From NCBI RefSeq assembly GCF_900105205.1, contig NZ_FNSQ01000001.1:1-10361 (forward strand): a stretch of 10,361 bases of DNA. Direction: 5' to 3'. The stretch's first letter is position 1; every line of letters starts with the position of its first letter. This document shows positions 1 through 10,361 of the stretch, piece after piece. Position numbers and translations under genes: made by a program. Source of the stretch: Microbacterium hydrocarbonoxydans. GTDB lineage: Bacteria; Actinomycetota; Actinomycetes; Actinomycetales; Microbacteriaceae. The notes under the pieces were generated by a model, which ran no database searches, was not told the origin of the DNA, and saw only the letters and a program-made list of their open reading frames with translations.

Positions 1-149
1 CGCTGAACGGGTTCATCTCGACCTTCAACATCGACTGGGGATCCATGTCGGCGGCCGCCGTGCTGACGATCCTGCCGACCATGGCGATGTTCGCTCTCGC
101 GAGCCGCTGGATCGTGCAGGGCCTCACGGCCGGAGCCGTCAAGGAGTAA
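1..149 (+). CDS. Carbohydrate ABC transporter permease, C-terminal end (partial)
   Basis: Only the last 48 codons are inside the window, in frame from base 3 and ending in TAA at 147-149. The peptide has a hydrophobic stretch (SAAAVLTILPTMAMFALASR) that would be the final membrane helix, and it ends WIVQGLTAGAVKE. That ending is typical of MalG-type inner-membrane permeases of binding-protein-dependent sugar importers, whose last residues usually read QGLTAGAVKG or similar. The cytoplasmic EAA loop that contacts the ATPase lies upstream and cannot be seen. The substrate is unknown. The gene converges on the aldo/keto reductase gene, with a shared terminator between them. The same peptide reappears at the other end of the window on the opposite strand. 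Confidence 0.85.
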   Translation, partial: LNGFISTFNIDWGSMSAAAVLTILPTMAMFALASRWIVQGLTAGAVKE

Positions 150-161
150 GCACATCCGGAG

Positions 162-203
162 ATGACGAAGGCCGCCGCCCTCAGGGACGGCGGCCTTCGT
201 CAT
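162..203. terminator. Bidirectional intrinsic-type terminator hairpin
   Basis: The arms ATGACGAAGGCCGCC (162-176) and GGCGGCCTTCGTCAT (189-203) are perfectly complementary over 15 bp. The G at 177 also pairs with the C at 188. A further CCC/GGG (178-180 with 184-186) can close the loop around TCA, leaving A187 bulged. The hairpin starts 12 bases after the permease stop codon and ends 24 bases before the aldo/keto reductase stop, so it sits between two convergent genes and can serve both. There is no long T run; the AAGG...CCTT positions inside the stem are the usual substitute in high-GC actinobacteria. Confidence 0.85.
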
Positions 204-227
204 GCATCCGTCAGACGCATGTCTCCG

Positions 228-1240
228 TCAGACCAGGCGGGCCTTCGGGGAGACCGAGTACGTCGCCTCGGCGTCGGTGTTGACCGTGTCGCCCAGCGCC
301 GTGTCGATCGCGGCGAGCGTGTCGGCGTCGAGCGTCACGCCCGAGGCCTTCACCGTCTCGGCGAGCTGCTCGGGCCGCGAGGCTCCGACCAGTGCCGCCG
401 CGACGTTCGGGTTCTGCAGGACCCAGGCGATCGCCAGCTGCGGCATCGACAGCCCGGCCTCCTCGGCGATCGGCTTGAGCCTCTGCACGGCGGTGAGGAT
501 GTCGTCCTGCAGGAAGCTCTTGATTGAAGTCGGCGCCGCTGTGCGGGTCGGTCGCGCGCGACCCTCCGGCACCGGCTGACCCGGCAGGTACTTCCCGACA
601 GCACGCCCTGCGCCATCGGCGACCAGACGATCTGCGAGATGCCGAGGTCCTGCGACGTCGGCACGACCTTGCCCTCGATCACACGGTGGAGCATCGAGTA
701 CTGCGGCTGGTTCGAGATCAGCTGCACGCCGAGCTCCTTCGCCAGCGCGTGGCCGTCCTGCAGCTGCTCGGCAGTCCACTCCGAGACGCCGATGTAGAGG
801 GCCTTGCCCTGGCGGACGACATCGGCGAACGCCTGGAAGGTCTCCTCCAGCGGCGTCTCGTAGTCGAAGCGGTGCGCCTGGTACAGGTCGACGTAGTCGG
901 TGCCGAGGCGCTTCAGCGATCCGTTGATCGACTCGAGGATGTGCTTGCGGCTGAGCCCGGTGTCGTTGGGCCCCTTGGGACCGGTCGGGAAGTAGACCTT
1001 GGTGAAGATCTCGAGCCCCTCGCGGCGCTGACCCTCGAGCGCCTTGCCGAGGACGACCTCCGCCGCGGTGTTCGCGTACGTGTCGGCCGTGTCGAACGTG
1101 GTGATGCCGGCGTCGAGCGCCGCATGCACGGTCTTGACGGCCGCGTCGTCTTCGACCTGTGATGCGTGGGTGACCCAGTTGCCGTAGGTGATCTCGGAGA
1201 CCTTGAGACCGCTGTTGCCGAGATAGCGATAGTTGACCAT
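228..1240 (-). pseudogene. Aldo/keto reductase (AKR), left copy, frameshifted near its 3' end
   Basis: NADPH-dependent oxidoreductase of the AKR superfamily with a TIM-barrel fold, resembling the bacterial AKR6/Kv-beta-like group (starts VNYRYLGNSGLKVSE; carries GLSRKHI, WSPMAQGVLSGKY and LVGASRPEQL). Reconstructing both arms gives 337 residues, a normal length. The catalytic tetrad is visible as D50, Y55, K81 and H123. H123 matters because Kv-beta proteins have Asn there, so enzymatic activity is plausible. The cofactor-binding end (LVGASRPEQLAE) lies near residue 300. In this arm the frame is good from ATG 1238-1240 to about 597. It is then disturbed by a missing base in CCC 594-596, another in CCC 562-564 and an extra T at 524-525; the C-terminus continues one frame over to TGA at 228-230. 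The right arm has the correct base at each site, so these look like read errors and the gene is probably intact. Substrate unknown. Confidence 0.85.
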
Positions 1241-1252
1241 GGAACAACGCTA
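1241..1252 (-). promoter_or_regulatory. Likely leaderless promoter -10 of the aldo/keto reductase
   Basis: Read on the minus strand, TAGCGT (1252 down to 1247) fits the actinobacterial -10 pattern TAnnnT and lies 6 bases before the ATG at 1240. No purine-rich ribosome-binding site precedes the start. Transcription would therefore begin at or next to the start codon, giving a leaderless mRNA. No convincing -35 box was seen. The call is inferred from spacing. Confidence 0.45.
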
Positions 1253-1298
1253 CCGGCCGTCGACGACGTCGGGGCCTGATCGCCGTGACCGGTCTCAG

Positions 1299-1314
1299 CC
1301 TGCGTGGCCGCAGG
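1299..1314. other. Small GC hairpin downstream of DUF4407 gene
   Basis: CCTGCG (1299-1304) and CGCAGG (1309-1314) pair around a four-base loop, starting 4 bases past the DUF4407 stop. The hairpin is flanked by the direct repeat GGTCTCAG (1291-1298 and 1315-1322). It could slow RNA polymerase between the DUF4407 and aldo/keto reductase genes, but a six-pair stem with no T tract is weak, so it is not called a terminator. Confidence 0.35.
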
Positions 1315-1318
1315 GGTC

Positions 1319-2968
1319 TCAGACGCGCGGTTCGACCAGCTGCTCCTGCTCCTCGAGCGTCTGAGCCTGCGCGCGCTTCTCGGCGAGCTCGCGCTCCTGG
1401 GCAGCTTCCCGCTGCTCGGCGGCCTGCGCCGCCTCCTTGCGCTCGGCGCGGGTCTGCGGCTCGCCGGTTCCGGCATCCGCCTGGATGCCCTGCGACTGCA
1501 CGCTCACGATCGCCGCGCGGTCTCGGAAGCCCTCGGCGGTGACCTTGTCGAGCGCGACCTGGCGACGGATCGCCGCGGCCTTCTCGTACAGCGACGGATC
1601 GCCGAAGCAGGTGAGCACCTTCACCAGCACCGGCAGCAGCTCGATCATGAAGAACAGCGCGGCGATCAGGATGTGCGCCCACAGGATCGTCGGCTCCTTC
1701 TCGCTGAGCCTGTTCAGTCCGCTGATCTGGCTCAGCAGCCCGATGGCTCCCGCGTTGCCGGAGGCCACGGACTCGGCGCGCGCGTTGTACGCCGCGAGCG
1801 CGGTGTCGTAGCTGTCGCGGGCTGCGGGCAGCTGCGACTTCGCCTCCTCGCGGTTCTGCGCCTCCGAGGTGCTCGTGTTCTCCTTCGCGGCGCTGCCGGC
1901 GTCGGCGAGCTCCTCGTTGGCGGTGCGCAGCTGGGCGGCCAGCGCGTCGTACGTCTGCTGCGCCTCGGCCAGCTGCGCCTTCGCGGCATCGGAGCTCGCG
2001 CCTTCACCGTTGACGCCGGTGCATCCGGGCACGGTTCCCGCACCCTCGCCGGTGAGCTCGCACTGATAGAGCGTGCGCGCCTGATCGATCACGGCCTGCT
2101 GATCGGTCATCTTCGCGGTCAGATCGTCGACCGTGGCCTGAGCGGCGGACTCACTCGCCGACGACGAGTCGGTGCCAGCGACGATGCCCGTCGCGGCCTG
2201 GTTCTCGAGTTCGGCCACGCGATCGGATGCCGCATCCAGCGCCTTCTTCTCCGGGCCGGTCTCGAGTGCATCCTGGTCGGCCTGCGCCTGGGTGATGTTG
2301 GTGGAGGCGACCTCACGGGCGATGTCGTTGTGGAAGATCTGCAGCACGAGGGGCTCTGCGACGACGAATCCGATGATCGCCGCCATGACGACTCGGGGGA
2401 TCGCGAGGCCGATCAGCTTCCAGACGTTGCGCGTCGACGTCATCGTCGAGGTGAGGAAGCGGTCGAGGTTGAAGATGATCAGCGCCCAGACGATCGCCAG
2501 CGGCACGGCCAGCCAGATCACGGCCTGCACACCGGTGGTCAGCGCGAACAGCATCGAGATCGCCGAGACCAGGGCGGTGCCGGCGAGCACGAAGAACATC
2601 TGCACGAAGCGCGGCGTCTCGCCGGGCACACGGTCGAGGATCTCGCCGTCCGCACCGCCGAGGATCGCGAGGCGCCGGAACCCGGAACCCGGCACGCGGG
2701 GCTTCCGCTCGCGCGGCTGTCGGCGAGGCTTCGGCTCACGCCTGGGCTCCTGCTCGGCGGACGACTCTGCGGATGCGTCGGCATCCGCGTCCCGCTCGTC
2801 GTCGGACATCCGCCGCTCGTCCTGCGCACGCGGCGGAGTCAGGTCGGCGCCGGTGGGCTCGTACTCGCGCAGGAAGTCGAGGTCGTCCGTGTCAGCGTTC
2901 GGGTCGCTGTCGAGGATGATCCGACCCTGCGAATCGAACCGTCCTGGACGGTGAGCGGAATAGGGCAT
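1319..2968 (-). CDS. DUF4407 domain-containing membrane protein (intact copy)
   Basis: 549 residues, open from ATG 2966-2968 to TGA 1319-1321. The start is chosen because MPYSAHRPGRFD begins just after a TAGATT -10 box; the frame stays open further upstream but runs into tetR. Order: acidic then basic low-complexity cytoplasmic N-terminus (about 1-95); helix 1 (about 121-143); helix 2 (148-172), ending in the family-typical FNLDRFL; helix 3 (186-212), with AEPLVLQIF; a roughly 215-residue Ala/Gln/Glu-rich, coiled-coil-like domain (about 215-428); helix 4 (430-453); and a charged coiled-coil C-terminus. With four helices and a cytoplasmic N-terminus, the large loop would sit outside the membrane. 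It holds two cysteines (C303, C316) that could form a disulfide. DUF4407 proteins have no established function. The gene follows tetR in the same direction, 98 bases away. Confidence 0.9.
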   Translation of the reverse strand: MPYSAHRPGRFDSQGRIILDSDPNADTDDLDFLREYEPTGADLTPPRAQDERRMSDDERDADADASAESSAEQEPRREPKPRRQPRERKPRVPGSGFRRLAILGGADGEILDRVPGETPRFVQMFFVLAGTALVSAISMLFALTTGVQAVIWLAVPLAIVWALIIFNLDRFLTSTMTSTRNVWKLIGLAIPRVVMAAIIGFVVAEPLVLQIFHNDIAREVASTNITQAQADQDALETGPEKKALDAASDRVAELENQAATGIVAGTDSSSASESAAQATVDDLTAKMTDQQAVIDQARTLYQCELTGEGAGTVPGCTGVNGEGASSDAAKAQLAEAQQTYDALAAQLRTANEELADAGSAAKENTSTSEAQNREEAKSQLPAARDSYDTALAAYNARAESVASGNAGAIGLLSQISGLNRLSEKEPTILWAHILIAALFFMIELLPVLVKVLTCFGDPSLYEKAAAIRRQVALDKVTAEGFRDRAAIVSVQSQGIQADAGTGEPQTRAERKEAAQAAEQREAAQERELAEKRAQAQTLEEQEQLVEPRV

Positions 2969-2973
2969 CCGAC

Positions 2974-2979
2974 AATCTA
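2974..2979 (-). promoter_or_regulatory. Likely -10 box of the DUF4407 gene
   Basis: On the minus strand TAGATT (2979 down to 2974) matches TAnnnT and is 5 bases before the ATG in this arm (6 in the right arm, where a GG run reads GGG). No Shine-Dalgarno sequence is visible, which again suggests a leaderless transcript separate from tetR. The same 98-base gap holds no other recognisable element. Confidence 0.45.
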
Positions 2980-3066
2980 CGAAATGTCGCCTGTGGAAAA
3001 CGTGGACGAACGCTGTGTCCTTGCCTGCTGCGGCGCTCGCGACGGCTCTCGGCGACGTTGGCGAGA

Positions 3067-3645
3067 TCAGCGCGGGAGCATGCGCGTGAGCGCATCGGCA
3101 CTCGCGGCGAGCGCGGCGTCGAGCGTGAAGTGACCGGCGGCGCACAGCGTCCCGAGACCATGCGCGAGGCCCCAGACGCCGATGACGCCGGTGTCGCCGT
3201 CGAGTCCCGCCGCGACGGATGCCTCCGACAGCAGCTCCTCGAGTTCGTCGATCAGCGGCGCCATGGTCTCGCTCGGCTCCCCCGGGATGCAAACGGTGGG
3301 GTCGTAGATGACGTCGAAGCCGTGCGGATGCTCGACCGCGTAGCGGATGTACGCACCGCCGCCCTCGATCACCGCGGCACGAGGGTCGCCCGCACCCTCG
3401 ATCGCCTCGCGGACGGCAGCGACGAGGTCGGCCATGCTGCGTTCGGCGAGCACCTTCAGCAGCCCTCGCCGGTCGGAGAAGTGGTGGTACGGGGCGTTGT
3501 GGCTGACATCCGCCGCGCGGGCGACTTCGCGCAGGCTGATCTCCCCCGCGGGCTTCTCGGCGAGCAGCTGCATCGCGGCCGCTTCGAGAGCGTGGGCGAG
3601 GTCGCCGTGGTGATAGCCGGACCGAGAACTTGACACAAGCAACAT
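3067..3645 (-). CDS. TetR/AcrR family transcriptional regulator (intact copy)
   Basis: 192 residues, a normal TetR length, from ATG 3643-3645 to TGA 3067-3069. The N-terminal DNA-binding part includes the family opening YHHGDLAHALEAAAMQLLAE (11-30). A helix-turn-helix follows at about 36-68, with ISLREVARAADVSHNAPYHHF and then the typical GLLKVLAE. The C-terminal ligand-binding half carries VWGLAHGLGTLCAAGHF (157-173), which resembles the WHG-type TetR_C_33 effector domain. TetR proteins are usually repressors released by a small ligand; the ligand here is unknown. The gene diverges from the quinone oxidoreductase with 57 bases between start codons, and that gap is filled by a 43-bp dyad. Control of both genes, including itself, is therefore the natural inference. 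There is no strong ribosome-binding site (only GATAGG 7 bases upstream), so a nearby GTG or TTG start cannot be excluded. Confidence 0.9.
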   Translation of the reverse strand: MLLVSSSRSGYHHGDLAHALEAAAMQLLAEKPAGEISLREVARAADVSHNAPYHHFSDRRGLLKVLAERSMADLVAAVREAIEGAGDPRAAVIEGGGAYIRYAVEHPHGFDVIYDPTVCIPGEPSETMAPLIDELEELLSEASVAAGLDGDTGVIGVWGLAHGLGTLCAAGHFTLDAALAASADALTRMLPR

Positions 3646-3658
3646 TGTTGCCTATCTT
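3630..3658 (+). promoter_or_regulatory. Sigma-70-type promoter of the NAD(P)H:quinone oxidoreductase
   Basis: A consensus -35 TTGACA (3630-3635) is followed after exactly 17 bases by TATCTT (3653-3658), which matches four of six positions of TATAAT. Transcription would start near 3665, inside the left half of the dyad operator. A repressor bound there would block it. The -35 box lies within the first codons of tetR on the other strand. Confidence 0.55.
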
Positions 3659-3694
3659 GACAGTGTCCACCAGTACTTGACACTGTCAACATAG
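3652..3694. promoter_or_regulatory. Probable TetR operator: 43-bp near-perfect dyad
   Basis: CTATCTTGACAGTGTC (3652-3667) and GACACTGTCAACATAG (3679-3694) are inverted copies with one mismatched pair (C3656/C3690) and an 11-base spacer. The inner 11 bp (TTGACAGTGTC / GACACTGTCAA) are perfect. The dyad lies between the divergent tetR and oxidoreductase starts and covers the oxidoreductase -10 box and start site. At its right end it touches the AGGAG ribosome-binding site (3693-3697). TetR dimers bind such dyads; the length would suit two dimers or one extended site. The same dyad is unchanged in the right arm (6678-6720). Confidence 0.75.
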
Positions 3695-3702
3695 GAGTTC
3701 GA

Positions 3703-4377
3703 ATGCCTTCCGCCCTGATCATCGACGGCCACCCGGACGCCCGCTCGCTCTCCGCAGAGCTCGCTCGTCGCTATGCCGCAGCGCACGGCGATGCCCGCAT
3801 CCTCGCGCTGCGCGACCTCGACTTCGACCCGTCGCTACGCTTCGGGTATCGCGAGCGCATGGAGCTGGAGCCCGATCTGATCGACGCCAAGCAGGCACTG
3901 CGGGAGGCCGCGACCGTCGTGGTCGTGACGCCCCTCTGGTGGGGATCGGTGCCCGCAGTGCTGAAGGGGTTCTTCGATCGCGCGCTGCTCCCCCAGCAGG
4001 AATACCGCTACTCGAAGGCCGGACTCCCCGAGGGCCTTCTCACCGCGGCGAGCGGGCGCCTGTTCCTGCTGGCGGACACCCCGTGGTTCCTGACGCCCTT
4101 CACCGGGCTCCCGGCGCGGACGCACGTGGCGCGCGGGACGCTGCGATTCTGCGGCATCCGCTCGGTACGCACGACCCGGATGCTGGGCGTCAAGGACGCG
4201 AAGCCCGAGCGCATCGCCTCGTGGCTCGCTCGCGCCGGATCACTCGGTCACCGCGACGGCGTCCGTGACGCCGCTCGCGCCGGCATCAGCACCGGTATCC
4301 GCGACCGCGGCGATGAGGCCGAGCCTCAGGCCATCGCGGCGGACGCAGCCTCGTCCTCGGTCGTCGCGACGAGCTGA
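3703..4377 (+). CDS. Flavodoxin-fold NAD(P)H:quinone oxidoreductase (intact copy)
   Basis: 224 residues from ATG 3703 to TGA 4375-4377, preceded by AGGAG 5 bases upstream. It belongs to the Flavodoxin_2 family (NQO1/MdaB/KefF-like), soluble FMN or FAD enzymes that reduce quinones by two electrons from NAD(P)H. Evidence: beta-strand and phosphate loop [15 protein letters not shown] (3-17); the family signature [20 protein letters not shown] (76-95), where the aromatic and glycine residues line the flavin; and a PWFLTPFTG segment (127-135). Residues past about 190 (RDAARAG onward) are an Ala/Asp-rich tail not typical of the family. They run 52 bases into the 3' end of convergent rlmN; both arms agree on this tail. 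The adjacent divergent TetR gene and shared operator suggest induction by an electrophile or quinone-like compound, which is inference. Azoreductase or nitroreductase-like activity is an alternative. Confidence 0.88.
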
Positions 4378-5135
4378 CCGCACGCGCCGTCGATCTCCTT
4401 GCCCCGGGTGTCGCGGAGGGTCGTCGGGATGCCGGCGTCGTTGAGCCGGCGCACGAACTCGTTCTGCACCGACGGCTCGGACGAGGTCCAGATCGAACCC
4501 GGCGTCGGTTCAGCGGGATCGGGTTGACGTGCACCCAGCCGCGACCGCGCTCGTTGAGCTTCTCGGCGAGCAGATCGGCACGCCAGGCGTGGTCGTTCAT
4601 GTCCTTGATCAGCGCGTACTCGATCGAGACACGGCGGCCGGTCTTCTCGTAGTAGTACCGCGCGGCGTCGAGCGCCTCGTCGACCTTCCAGCGGGAGTTC
4701 ACCGGGATGAGCTCGTCGCGCAGGTGGTCGTCCGGCGCGTGCAGCGACAGCGCGAAGGTCACCGGGATGCCCTCGTCGGCGAGCTTCTTGATCGCCGGCA
4801 CCAGTCCGACGGTCGAGACCGTGATGCCGCGCGCGCTCATACCGAGGCCGTCGGGCTGCGGGGCGACCATCGAGCGCACGGCGTCCATGACGCGCTTGTA
4901 GTTGGCCAGCGGCTCGCCCATCCCATGAAGACGATGTTCGAGACGCGCTCCATCGAGTGGTCGTCGGCCTTCTTGCCGCCGAGGCCGCCGTCGGCGATCA
5001 GCCGGTTGGCGCGGACGATCTGCTCGAGGATCTCGGCCGTCGACATGTTTGCGGGTCAGCCCGCCTGGCCGGTGGCGCAGAACGGGCAGTTCATGCGCAT
5101 CCGGCCTGCGACGACACGCACAGCGTGATGCGCCC
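4326..5135 (-). pseudogene. rlmN: rlmN fragment, left copy, cut at the fold-back point
   Basis: C-terminal part of the dual-specificity 23S rRNA A2503 / tRNA A37 C2-methyltransferase, a radical SAM enzyme. Reading inward from the fold-back point the peptide includes [20 protein letters not shown], then [18 protein letters not shown] and PIPLNP, and ends [21 protein letters not shown] before TGA 4326-4328. The gene is broken at 5135, where the sequence turns round, so the start is absent. Single-base errors relative to the right arm lie near 4507 (G missing), 4923 (C missing), 5049 (extra T) and 5096 (C missing). A further missing base at 5059/5060 is shared with the right arm. Its last 52 bases overlap the 3' end of the convergent oxidoreductase gene. 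Confidence 0.88.
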
Positions 5136-5242
5136 TGCTCACCGAGGTCCGGCGCCTGGAGACCGACCGCGGCGACACGATCAAGTTCCTCTGGCGCCTG
5201 CACGACGGTGCACTCGTGGAGTCGGTGCTCATGCGCTACCCG
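5136..5242 (+). other. Single-copy 107-base loop between the two arms
   Basis: These are the only bases without a mirror partner. On the + strand they encode rlmN upstream of the right-arm match ([20 protein letters not shown], then [16 protein letters not shown]), so they join in frame to the right arm and not to the left. The right strand therefore reaches 107 bases further into rlmN than the left. I see no adapter-like sequence, repeat or attachment site here. This fits a duplex whose first strand ended short or had a recessed 3' end. It also fits a polymerase that jumped strands. Confidence 0.9.
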
Positions 5243-6053
5243 GGGCGCATCACGCTGTGCGTGTCGTCGCAGGCCGGATGCGGCATGAACTGCCCGTTCT
5301 GCGCCACCGGCCAGGCGGGCTGACCCGCAACATGTCGACGGCCGAGATCCTCGAGCAGATCGTCCGCGCCAACCGGCTGATCGCCGACGGCGGCCTCGGC
5401 GGCAAGAAGGCCGACGACCACTCGATGGAGCGCGTCTCGAACATCGTCTTCATGGGGATGGGCGAGCCGCTGGCCAACTACAAGCGCGTCATGGACGCCG
5501 TGCGCTCGATGGTCGCCCCGCAGCCCGACGGCCTCGGTATGAGCGCGCGCGGCATCACGGTCTCGACCGTCGGACTGGTGCCGGCGATCAAGAAGCTCGC
5601 CGACGAGGGCATCCCGGTGACCTTCGCGCTGTCGCTGCACGCGCCGGACGACCACCTGCGCGACGAGCTCATCCCGGTGAACTCCCGCTGGAAGGTCGAC
5701 GAGGCGCTCGACGCCGCGCGGTACTACTACGAGAAGACCGGCCGCCGTGTCTCGATCGAGTACGCGCTGATCAAGGACATGAACGACCACGCCTGGCGTG
5801 CCGATCTGCTCGCCGAGAAGCTCAACGAGCGCGGTCGCGGCTGGGTGCACGTCAACCCGATCCCGCTGAACCCGACGCCGGGTTCGATCTGGACCTCGTC
5901 CGAGCCGTCGGTGCAGAACGAGTTCGTGCGCCGGCTCAACGACGCCGGCATCCCGACGACCCTCCGCGACACCCGGGCAAGGAGATCGACGGCGCGTGCG
6001 GTCAGCTCGTCGCGACGACCGAGGACGAGGCTGCGTCCGCCGCGATGGCCTGA
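5138..6053 (+). pseudogene. rlmN: rlmN (23S rRNA A2503 / tRNA A37 methyltransferase), longer copy, N-terminus missing, frameshifted
   Basis: About 305 residues of RlmN, which uses a 4Fe-4S cluster and SAM to methylate C2 of adenine in 23S rRNA and some tRNAs in the cytoplasm. Visible hallmarks: the CxxxCxxC cluster ligands at 5279, 5291 and 5300; the Cys of LCVSS (5258-5260); and the catalytic C-terminal Cys of GACGQL (5997-5999). SAM-binding segments MGMGEPL and SLHAP and the NPIPLNP segment are also present. The first roughly 80-100 residues are absent because the sequence folds back at 5136. Two frame breaks are present. One C is missing after 5320, giving TGA at 5321 in place of Leu-Thr in the conserved GQAGLTRN; this gap is in both arms. 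One G is missing in GGG 5975-5977 and not in the left arm. From 5332 to about 5975 the frame is clean. TGA at 6051-6053 ends the gene. Confidence 0.9.
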
Positions 6054-6669
6054 GGCTCGGCCTCATCGCCGCGGTCGCGGATACCGGTGCTGATGCCGGC
6101 GCGAGCGGCGTCACGGACGCCGTCGCGGTGACCGAGTGATCCGGCGCGAGCGAGCCACGAGGCGATGCGCTCGGCTTCGCGTCCTTGACGCCCAGCATCC
6201 GGGTCGTGCGTACCGAGCGGATGCCGCAGAATCGCAGCGTCCCGCGCGCCACGTGCGTCCGCGCCGGAGCCGGTGAAGGGCGTCAGGAACCACGGGTGTC
6301 CGCCAGCAGGAACAGGCGCCCGCTCGCCGCGGTGAGAAGGCCCTCGGGGAGTCCGGCCTTCGAGTAGCGGTATTCCTGCTGGGGAGCAGCGCGCGATCGA
6401 AGAACCCCTTCAGCACTGCGGGCACCGATCCCACCAGAGGGCGTCACGACCACGACGGTCGCGGCCTCCCGCAGTGCCTGCTTGGCGTCGATCAGATCGG
6501 GCTCCAGCTCCATGCGCTCGCGATACCCGAAGCGTAGCGACGGGTCGAAGTCGAGGTCGCGCAGCGCGAGGATGCGGGCATCGCCGTGCGCTGCGGCATA
6601 GCGACGAGCGAGCTCTGCGGAGAGCGAGCGGGCGTCCGGGTGGCCGTCGATGATCAGGGCGGAAGGCAT
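6002..6669 (-). pseudogene. NAD(P)H:quinone oxidoreductase, right copy, frameshifted
   Basis: Mirror of the intact gene at 3703-4377, starting at ATG 6667-6669 and shorter by 7 bases. Each difference is one base missing from a C or G run, for example GG at 6173-6174 where the left arm has GGG, and single losses in the CCCC and GGGG runs of the conserved TPLWWGS region near 6430-6445. The first 75 or so residues read correctly; after that the frame is lost. Seven losses in under 700 bases with no substitution is not how a natural pseudogene decays. I treat this as the same gene read less accurately. Confidence 0.85.
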
Positions 6670-6677
6670 TCGAACTC

Positions 6678-6720
6678 CTATGTTGACAGTGTCAAGTACT
6701 GGTGGACACTGTCAAGATAG
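6678..6720. promoter_or_regulatory. Probable TetR operator, right copy
   Basis: Exact mirror of 3652-3694, with arms at 6678-6693 and 6705-6720 and the same single mismatched pair. It lies between the oxidoreductase start (6669) and the tetR start (6727). No base differs from the left copy, so the operator sequence is confirmed by both reads. Confidence 0.72.
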
Positions 6721-6742
6721 GCAACAATGTTGCTTGTGTCAA
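6714..6742 (-). promoter_or_regulatory. Oxidoreductase promoter, right copy
   Basis: On the minus strand TTGACA (6742 down to 6737), 17 bases, then TATCTT (6719 down to 6714). Identical to the left-arm promoter at 3630-3658 and overlapping the dyad in the same way. Confidence 0.5.
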
Positions 6743-7297
6743 GTTCTCGGTCGGCTATCACCACGGCGACCTCGCCCACGCTCTCGAAGCGGCCGCGATG
6801 CAGCTGCTCGCCGAGAAGCCGCGGGGGAGATCAGCCTGCGCGAAGTCGCCCGCGCGGCGGATGTCAGCCACAACGCCCGTACCACCACTTCTCCGACCGG
6901 CGAGGGCTGCTGAAGGTGCTCGCCGAACGCAGCATGGCCGACCTCGTCGCTGCCGTCCGCGAGGCGATCGAGGGTGCGGCGACCCTCGTGCCGCGGTGAT
7001 CGAGGGCGGCGTGCGTACATCCGCTACGCGGTCGAGCATCCGCACGGCTTCGACGTCATCTACGACCCCACCGTTTGCATCCCGGGGAGCCGAGCGAGAC
7101 CATGGCGCCGCTGATCGACGAACTCGAGGAGCTGCTGTCGGAGGCATCCGTCGCGGCGGACTCGACGGCGACACCGGCGTCATCGGCGTCTGGGCCTCGC
7201 GCATGGTCTCGGGACGCTGTGCGCCGCCGGTCACTTCACGCTCGACGCCGCGCTCGCCGCGAGTGCCGATGCGCTCACGCGCATGCTCCCGCGCTGA
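6727..7297 (+). pseudogene. TetR/AcrR regulator, right copy, frameshifted
   Basis: Mirror of the intact regulator at 3067-3645, from ATG 6727 to TGA 7295-7297, and 8 bases shorter. All eight differences are single missing C or G residues in short runs, the first within the tenth codon (TCGGTCGG where the left arm has TCGGTCCGG). The reading frame is therefore broken almost from the start and fragments of the protein appear in all three frames. It is not a functional second regulator. Confidence 0.85.
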
Positions 7298-7384
7298 TCT
7301 CGCCAACGTCGCCGAGAGCCGTCGCGAGCGCCGCAGCAGGCAAGGACACAGCGTTCGTCCACGTTTTCCACAGGCGACATTTCG

Positions 7385-7390
7385 TAGATT
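7385..7390 (+). promoter_or_regulatory. Likely -10 box of the DUF4407 gene, right copy
   Basis: TAGATT at 7385-7390, 6 bases before ATG 7397 and with no Shine-Dalgarno sequence between. It mirrors 2974-2979. The GGG before the ATG is GG in the left arm; reading frame cannot decide which is correct. Confidence 0.42.
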
Positions 7391-7396
7391 GTCGGG

Positions 7397-9044
7397 ATGC
7401 CCTATTCCGCTCACCGTCCAGGACGGTTCGATTCGCAGGGTCGGATCATCCTCGACAGCGACCCGAACGCTGACACGGACGACCTCGACTTCCTGCGCGA
7501 GTACGAGCCCACCGGCGCCGACCTGACTCCGCGCGTGCGCAGGACGAGCGGCGGATGTCCGACGACGAGCGGGACGCGGATGCCGACGCATCCGCAGAGT
7601 CGTCCGCCGAGCAGGAGCCCAGGCGTGAGCCGAAGCCTCGCCGACAGCCGCGCGAGCGGAAGCCCGCGTGCCGGGTTCCGGGTTCCGGCGCCTCGCGATC
7701 CTCGGCGGTGCGGACGGCGAGATCCTCGACCGTGTGCCCGGCGAGACGCCGCGCTTCGTGCAGATGTTCTTCGTGCTCGCCGGCACCGCCCTGGTCTCGG
7801 CGATCTCGATGCTGTTCGCGCTGACCACCGGTGTGCAGGCCGTGATCTGGCTGGCCGTGCCGCTGGCGATCGTCTGGGCGCTGATCATCTTCAACCTCGA
7901 CCGCTTCCTCACCTCGACGATGACGTCGACGCGCAACGTCTGGAAGCTGATCGGCCTCGCGATCCCCCGAGTCGTCATGGCGGCGATCATCGGATTCGTC
8001 GTCGCAGAGCCCCTCGTGCTGCAGATCTTCCACAACGACATCGCCCGTGAGGTCGCCTCCACCAAACATCACCCAGGCGCAGGCCGACCAGGATGCACTC
8101 GAGACCGGCCCGGAGAAGAAGGCGCTGGATGCGGCATCCGATCGCGTGGCCGAACTCGAGAACCAGGCGCGACGGGCATCGTCGCTGGCACCGACTCGTC
8201 GTCGGCGAGTGAGTCCGCCGCTCAGGCCACGGTCGACGATCTGACCGCGAAGATGACCGATCAGCAGGCCGTGATCGATCAGGCGCGCACGCTCTATCAG
8301 TGCGAGCTCACCGGCGAGGGTGCGGGAACCGTGCCCGGATGCACCGGCGTCAACGGTGAAGGCGCGAGCTCCGATGCCGCGAAGGCGCAGCTGGCCGAGG
8401 CGCAGCAGACGTACGACGCGCTGGCCGCCCAGCTGCGCACCGCCAACGAGGAGCTCGCCGACGCCGGCAGCGCCGCGAAGGAGAACACGAGCACCTCGGA
8501 GCGCAGAACCGCGAGGAGGCGAAGTCGCAGCTGCCCGCAGCCCGCGACAGCTACGACACCGCGCTCGCGGCGTACAACGCGCGCGCCGAGTCCGTGGCCT
8601 CCGGCAACGCGGGAGCCATCGGGCTGCTGAGCCAGATCAGCGGACTGAACAGGCTCAGCGAGAAGGAGCCGACGATCCTGTGGGCGCACATCCTGATCGC
8701 CGCGCTGTTCTTCAATGATCGAGCTGCTGCCGGTGCTGGTGAAGGTGCTCACCTGCTTCGGCGATCCGTCGCTGTACGAGAAGGCCGCGGCGATCCGTCG
8801 CCAGGTCGCGCTCGACAAGGTCACCGCCGAGGGCTTCCGAGACCGCGCGGCGATCGTGAGCGTGCAGTCGCAGGGCATCCAGGCGGATGCCGGAACCGGC
8901 GAGCCGCAGACCCGCGCCGAGCGCAAGGAGGCGGCGCAGGCCGCCGAGCAGCGGGAAGCTGCCCAGGAGCGCGAGCTCGCCGAGAAGCGCGCGCAGGCTC
9001 AGACGCTCGAGGAGCAGGAGCAGCTGGTCGAACCGCGCGTCTGA
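7397..9044 (+). pseudogene. DUF4407 membrane protein, right copy, frameshifted
   Basis: Mirror of the intact gene at 1319-2968, from ATG 7397 to TGA 9042-9044, net 2 bases shorter. Six single-base differences break the frame: a C missing near 7530; CCC for CCCC at 7663-7665; AAA for AA at 8064-8066; a C missing at 8167-8168; a G missing at 8499-8501; and AA for A at 8714-8715. The stretch encoding helices 1-3 (from about 7668 to 8064) is clean, as is the C-terminus after 8715. The left arm shows the true protein. Confidence 0.87.
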
Positions 9045-9048
9045 GACC

Positions 9049-9064
9049 CCTGCGGCCACGCAGG
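9049..9064. other. Small GC hairpin downstream of DUF4407 gene, right copy
   Basis: CCTGCG (9049-9054) pairs with CGCAGG (9059-9064). It mirrors 1299-1314 and starts 4 bases after the stop codon. Weak; no T tract. Confidence 0.33.
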
Positions 9065-9110
9065 CTGAGACCGGTCACGGCGATCAGGCCCCGACGTCGT
9101 CGACGGCCGG

Positions 9111-9122
9111 TAGCGTTGTTCC
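9111..9122 (+). promoter_or_regulatory. Likely leaderless promoter -10 of the aldo/keto reductase, right copy
   Basis: TAGCGT (9111-9116) stands 6 bases before ATG 9123 with no ribosome-binding site between. It mirrors 1241-1252 without change. Confidence 0.42.
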
Positions 9123-10132
9123 ATGGTCAACTATCGCTATCTCGGCAACAGCGGTCTCAAGGTCTCCGAGATCACCTACGGCAACTGGGTCACCCACGCA
9201 TCACAGGTCGAAGACGACGCGGCCGTCAAGACCGTGCATGCGGCGCTCGACGCCGGCATCACCACGTTCGACACGGCCGACACGTACGCGAACACCGCGG
9301 CGGAGGTCGTCCTCGCAAGGCGCTCGAGGTCAGCGCCGCGAGGGGCTCGAGATCTTCACCAAGGTCTACTTCCCGACCGGTCCCAAGGGGCCCAACGACA
9401 CCGGGCTCAGCCGCAAGCACATCCTCGAGTCGATCAACGGATCGCTGAAGCGCCTCGGCACCGACTACGTCGACCTGTACCAGGCGCACCGCTTCGACTA
9501 CGAGACGCCGCTGGAGGAGACCTTCCAGGCGTTCGCCGATGTCGTCCGCCAGGGCAAGGCCCTCTACATCGGCGTCTCGGAGTGGACTGCGAGCAGCTGC
9601 AGGACGGCCACGCGCTGGCGAAGGAGCTCGGCGTGCAGCTGATCTCGAACCAGCCGCAGTACTCGATGCTCCACCGTGTGATCGAGGGCAAGGTCGTGCC
9701 GAACGTCGCAGGACCTCGGCATCTCGCAGATCGTCTGGTCGCCGATGGCGCAGGGCGTGCTGTCGGGGAAGTACCTGCCGGGTCAGCCGGTGCCGGAGGG
9801 GTCGCGCGCGACCGACCCGCACAGCGGCGCCGACTTCATCAAGAGCTTCCTGCAGGACGACATCCTCACCGCCGTGCAGAGGCTCAAGCCGATCGCCGAG
9901 GAGGCCGGGCTGTCGATGCCGCAGCTGGCGATCGCCTGGGTCCTGCAGAACCCGAACGTCGCGGCGGCACTGGTCGGAGCCTCGCGGCCCGAGCAGCTCG
10001 CCGAGACGGTGAAGGCCTCGGCGTGACGCTCGACCCGACACGCTCGCCGCGATCGACACGGCGCTGGGCGACACGGTCAACACCGACGCCGAGGCGACGT
10101 ACTCGGTCTCCCCGAAGGCCCGCCTGGTCTGA
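9123..10132 (+). pseudogene. Aldo/keto reductase, right copy, frameshifted
   Basis: Mirror of the left copy, ATG 9123 to TGA 10130-10132, 1010 bases against an expected 1014. Frame-based errors: G missing at 9315, G missing at 9328-9329, C missing at 9590, extra A at 9702-9703, G missing at 10020-10021 and G missing near 10034. The region 9745-10019 is clean. It supplies the correct VLSGKYLPGQPVPEGSRATD segment that the left arm garbles. The N-terminal 64 residues with D50 and Y55 are also clean. Combining the clean parts of both arms gives the full 337-residue enzyme. Confidence 0.85.
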
Positions 10133-10156
10133 CGGAGACATGCGTCTGACGGATGC

Positions 10157-10199
10157 ATGACGAAGGCCGCCGTCCCTGAGGGGCGGCGGCCTTCGTCAT
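10157..10199. terminator. Bidirectional terminator hairpin, right copy
   Basis: Stem ATGACGAAGGCCGCC (10157-10171) with GGCGGCCTTCGTCAT (10185-10199), mirroring 162-203. The loop has GGGG where the left arm implies GGG, one more homopolymer difference between arms. It lies between the convergent aldo/keto reductase and permease genes. Confidence 0.83.
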
Positions 10200-10211
10200 C
10201 TCCGGATGTGC

Positions 10212-10361
10212 TTACTCCTTGACGGCTCCGGCCGTGAGGCCCTGCACGATCCAGCGGCTCGCGAGAGCGAACATCGCCATGGTCGGCAGGATCGTCAGCA
10301 CGGCGGCCGCCGACATGGATCCCCAGTCGATGTTGAAGGTCGAGATGAACCCGTTCAGCGC
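10212..10361 (-). CDS. Carbohydrate ABC transporter permease, C-terminal end, right copy (partial)
   Basis: The last 49 codons plus stop (TAA, 10212-10214) of the MalG-type permease, entering from the right edge on the minus strand. It is identical in sequence to the left-edge fragment 1-149, with one additional base of context (10361). No frameshift is seen in this short piece. It is most likely the same gene end and not a second transporter. Confidence 0.83.
   Translation of the reverse strand, partial: ALNGFISTFNIDWGSMSAAAVLTILPTMAMFALASRWIVQGLTAGAVKE

Follow-up and report, generated by a model that had tools for sequence, protein, structure and literature searches.

An assembly contig that reads as its own mirror image raises the question of whether Microbacterium hydrocarbonoxydans carries a large inverted duplication or whether the second copy arose in the laboratory. 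The DNA analyzed here (the window) is the entire contig C1, 10,361 bases long, of an eight-contig assembly (G000) with a total of 3,594,787 bases. An earlier note had described it as two reverse-complementary arms, 1-5135 and 5243-10360, around a 107-base loop. We ran the self-comparison which that note had proposed as a self-BLAST search and obtained a near-full-length palindrome: bases 1-10360 aligned to 10360-1 with 98.8% identity over 10,407 columns (E=0). The 33 'mismatches' in this alignment are likely to be alignment effects of adjacent gaps. Both this search and alignment to the chromosome bore out the arms, and the loop was present as described; in addition, the match of arm B to the chromosome extended through the final base, 10361 (Table 1).

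The chromosome contig of the same assembly (C5; 3,518,974 bases) carries this stretch once and uninverted, at C5:642475-647726, among the 40 matches scored of 561 first-look candidates; other listed matches on C5 were short and mostly weak. Within the 14-kb parent stretch (L009), no self-inverted match was detected at 1e-50, and just one match, of 43 bases, at 1e-5. The 676 and 173 bases that flank the arms had no second place in the assembly except for one weak 51-base match. Genes at the parent locus are intact and code for RlmN, a flavodoxin-like reductase, a TetR regulator, a DUF4407 protein and an aldo/keto reductase (AKR); a transporter permease gene is also located there, partly within the stretch. 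The turn maps to C5:642475-642585 and is thus within rlmN, where the earlier note had placed it. The window is without about the first 122 codons of this gene, and the tblastn match of arm B begins at residue 124. In arm A the flavodoxin-like, tetR and DUF4407 frames are intact and those of AKR and rlmN are broken, and in arm B single-base indels disrupt all five. For the flavodoxin-like gene (window:3703-4377), the named sequences most closely related to it come from 13 Microbacterium records. Adjoining rlmN outside the window is a 184-aa ORF (L009:3484-4038, corresponding to C5:641483-642037), which gave two matches to the C-terminal domain of ribosomal protein L7/L12, plus DUF6793.

Table 1. 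Features of the window and of the rlmN gene at its parent locus
Feature	Position	Strand	Description
Arm A	1..5135	-	C5:647725-642585; 99.8% identity, 0 mismatches, 8 deletions, 2 insertions
Junction	5133..5135	.	3 bases (CCC) compatible with both arms
'Loop'	5136..5242	+	Single-occurrence rlmN sequence, colinear with arm B, start C5:642478; no adapter remnant seen
Arm B	5243..10361	+	With the loop (window 5133-10361), C5:642475-647726; 99.4% identity, 0 mismatches, 26 deletions, 3 insertions
rlmN	L009:4109-5398 = C5:642108-643397		Radical_SAM (PF04055) above cut-off; RlmN_N (PF21016) below cut-off (21.1 of 24 bits)

We also searched for the locus in 19 genomes (G000 and 18 relatives), scoring 15 candidates per genome. 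Of the 18 relatives, 17 had one place that matched the rlmN part among the matches scored (split into two neighboring pieces in G017); no such match was listed for G016, and some relatives had secondary matches of less than 100 bases in the rlmN part. In two genomes, G001 and G004, a colinear match of 4.5 kb (80% identity) crosses the turn point, the AKR part follows after another 2.4 kb, and the loci showed no self-inversion at 1e-30; these findings favor an artefact. Similarly, the small contigs of the relatives (four whole and the first 20 kb of five others) contained no self-inverted match at 1e-30. One of the control stretches from the relatives (L107) matched rRNA operons.

Two 30-base probes from the loop had no reverse complement anywhere in the window, which indicates that the loop is a stretch missing from the first arm; on the chromosome, the inner end of arm A stops about 110 bases short of the start of arm B. 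No unique flanking DNA was found beyond either arm of C1. The contig ends where the arms end, the first arm beginning at C5:647725 and the second finishing one base away, at C5:647726. This bears on the alternative given by the earlier note, a true inverted duplication in the genome, which would measure 5.1 kb and might be confined to some cells of the culture. Such a duplication is what the deposited sequence, taken at face value, contains, and in E. coli EC958, extra small PacBio contigs were considered to represent genuine alternative inversions of prophage tail genes (PMC4134206). However, a contig that never leaves its arms, with both ends within one base on C5, speaks against it. Real inversion variants of the EC958 type were rejected on the ground that no flanking DNA is reached past the arms of the contig.

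The remainder of the assembly proved to be informative. All seven contigs besides C5, the window included, are near-full-length palindromes with 97.4-99.0% self-identity; they are 9,870 to 11,969 bases long (75,813 bases combined), and no two of them are similar at 1e-20. In each of them, both arms map to one and the same place on C5. For six contigs this was the only near-identical place on C5, single-copy and uninverted, among the matches scored (at most 40 candidates per search, with weak partial matches elsewhere, about 64-96% and mostly short, set aside). The parent place of C2 was found three times because the right end of C5 repeats the start of C5 and then folds back. Specifically, C5:3494496-3510723 is a repeat of C5:1-16190, and C5:3510746-3518974 is the inverse of C5:16096-7883, so that the chromosome contig itself finishes in an eighth fold-back. 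The last 24.5 kb of C5 (3494496-3518974; L065 and L066) are redundant, consisting of the 16.2-kb start repeat and the 8.2-kb fold-back. The repeat is probably an untrimmed circle closure, and the real chromosome is probably, as judged from sequence overlap, a circle of about 3,494,495 bases. From the same overlap we infer that approximately 100,292 bases (2.8%) of the assembly, comprising the seven fold-back contigs and the untrimmed chromosome end, are redundant.

Seven palindromic contigs of similar size might also suggest small linear replicons with hairpin ends, recovered as head-to-head dimers. This is extremely improbable, as every small contig is a chromosomal stretch that is also present in C5, and no replication gene was detected among the genes of the window, which were scanned at the parent locus (for the other contigs, the scan covered three ORFs at the parent locus of C2).

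The turns of C2 (L010) and of the C5 end (L066), at C5:15899-15980 and C5:16096-16190, are no more than about 300 bases apart, for which the rough chance is 0.005 if all turns are independent. A single molecule, read twice, may account for these two fold-backs; alternatively, such reads may have caused the assembler to break at this point. Both turns sit in a transposon-like gene set (C5:13952-19361; L064) that codes for a Mu-transposase-C protein (681 aa), a TniB/AAA protein (347 aa) and an 868-aa protein with seven DUF4379 zinc-finger stretches. This gene set may resemble a Tn5053/Tn7-like element.

In all seven small contigs the turn is near the midpoint, at 49.2-52.2% of the length and hence within 10% of it. 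The outer ends differ on C5 by 1 base in C1, 201 in C2, 461 in C3, 141 in C4, 7 in C6, 3 in C7 and 4 in C8; that is, in four of the seven contigs they agree to 7 bases or less over arms of 5-6 kb, and in the other three they are unequal, a point against the artefact reading. Equal outer ends would be expected of one fragment read out and back, whereas a randomly cut genomic palindrome would not be expected to have them.

The differences between the arms point in the same direction. Consistent with the earlier claim that the arms differ by single-base indels only, neither arm of the window has a substitution relative to C5; there are 10 single-base indels in arm A and 29 in arm B, one of which is common to both. 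Across the seven small contigs, we counted 265 deletion, 92 insertion and 8 mismatch events relative to C5. Homopolymers of at least two bases harbor 238 of the 265 deletions, although such runs make up 38.4% of the bases of the parent stretches, and runs of at least three bases harbor 161, although they account for 10.9%. Deletions of more than 3 bases are confined to arm B of C6 (one, of 7 bases) and arm A of C7 (ten, of up to 14 bases). By raw count, the errors of the two halves are largely independent: 16 events are shared, of 173 in the first arms and 192 in the second arms of the seven contigs. That some are shared counts against the artefact reading; most of these are in C7 (6 of 25 and 32) and C3 (3 of 25 and 62), and may reflect homopolymer misreading that affected both strands, or mistakes in C5 itself. 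Zero substitutions in the window, with indels alone and most of them unshared, suggest read error and not divergence of genomic copies. Judged from sequence, the arms appear to be two strand reads, largely with separate sequencing errors. Read-type indels that break genes relative to C5, and that recur in seven unrelated contigs, thus also argue against a true duplication.

At all eight turns, the sequence returns on the opposite strand to the same locus within about 200 bases. The inner ends differ on C5 by 110 bases in C1, 81 in C2, 12 in C3, 70 in C4, 104 in C6, 114 in C7, 77 in C8 and 94 at the C5 end. In six of the eight (C1, C2, C4, C6, C7 and C8), a skip of 70-114 bases, each time in the same sense, separates the end of the first arm from the start of the second, which lies beyond it; the sense is opposite in C3 and at the C5 end. 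Clean junctions were found in C1, C4 and C6, with 3, 4 and 3 shared bases, respectively; in random inverted joins, at least 3 shared bases occurred in 7.6% of 20,000. The other five junctions have no shared bases, and 22-135 bases in them were left unplaced by alignment; part of those in C8 resembles the adjacent chromosome (62689-62764). The possibility that the turns occur at hairpin-prone sites was rejected, as fold stability was not unusual: in 200-base folds (ViennaRNA, DNA parameters), 70 to 300 of 300 random sites folded at least as stably as each of the eight turns. The lack of an unusually stable hairpin at any turn is a further point against a true inverted duplication, which we regard as very improbable.

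Thus, the rest of the assembly supports the reading preferred by the earlier note, in which the contig derives from a fold-back read or an amplification chimera. An uninverted single-copy parent, indels that are mostly unshared, outer ends within 1 base, and the same pattern in seven of seven small contigs and at the C5 end all favor it. We consider it highly probable that the palindrome is a sequencing or library fold-back artefact which was kept as a contig, by whichever laboratory step. In the proposed course of events, one long read, or its error-corrected form, would represent a chromosomal fragment of ~5.2 kb; the first strand would have been read to the end of the fragment, followed by the turn and by the complementary strand read back to the start. 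Such a read, left unsplit and unable to join the chromosome, would have remained as a separate contig.

Artefacts of this class have been described in print, as forward-adapter-reverse subreads, in the relevant passages of PMC4134206. According to these passages, unrecognized adapters yield subreads composed of insert, adapter and inverted insert, the adapters are removed in read correction, and the outcome can be false hairpins as well as spurious contigs of small size. The seven small contigs (C1-C4 and C6-C8) and the C5 end fit this pattern in their sequence structure. We infer that the likeliest laboratory step was an unrecognized SMRTbell hairpin adapter, lost later in read correction, and hold this with reasonable but limited confidence. 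The contigs differ from that description in that a search of the eight junctions with an adapter sequence revealed no remnant, with local scores within the range of 100 shuffles (although correction would be expected to remove adapters, PMC4134206), and in that the passages describing the artefact do not include a skip of 70-114 bases such as that at six of the turns.

Within the artefact reading, it is possible, although rather doubtful, that a strand end self-primed during whole-genome amplification or end repair (snap-back), generating a physical 10-kb palindrome that was then sequenced correctly. The bases shared at the clean junctions of C1, C4 and C6 and the constant sense of the skip at six of eight turns are in line with snap-back, and whole-genome amplification is known to generate palindromes, which are, as here, artificial inverted-repeat molecules in long reads (PMC6218980). 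In contrast, the five junctions with unplaced bases and no shared ones, and the other sense of the turns in C3 and the C5 end, do not fit this scenario. The palindromes of PMC6218980 can also hold several nested copies, whereas each contig here has one turn, and there is no sign that the DNA was amplified. Microhomology in three contigs and a skip of constant sense, set against five unclean junctions, leave an artefact of either form hardly in doubt, with snap-back as its lesser part. The narrow range of the skip is explained well neither by a missed adapter nor by snap-back. Short-lived palindromes of about 10-17 kb inside the cell, produced by strand switching at many chromosomal sites where 3-4 bases of microhomology are shared and ~100 bases are skipped, and caught by long reads, are very unlikely.

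Fold-back reads have also been profiled with Breakinator; in the portion of PMC12870357 that reports frequencies, they constitute about 0.55-0.6% of Nanopore genomic reads and are virtually absent from PacBio HiFi data, the latter being a point against the artefact reading. As in the definition given there, the second half of our contigs returns to the locus of the first, on the other strand and to within 200 bases, often with little sequence between the halves, and the turn lies within 10% of the midpoint, which is an optional filter of Breakinator. The fold-backs described in that part of the study are reads from human cell lines and mouse tissue, whereas those described here are bacterial contigs.

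As a feature of the organism, the palindrome almost certainly does not exist, and its biological significance is none. Its significance is one of data hygiene, with about 100 kb (2.8%) of the assembly redundant. The window carries frameshifted duplicate genes, and the other six small contigs have indels of the same kind. If read as genome, such fold-back contigs would suggest paralogues, pseudogenes and inverted duplications that do not exist.
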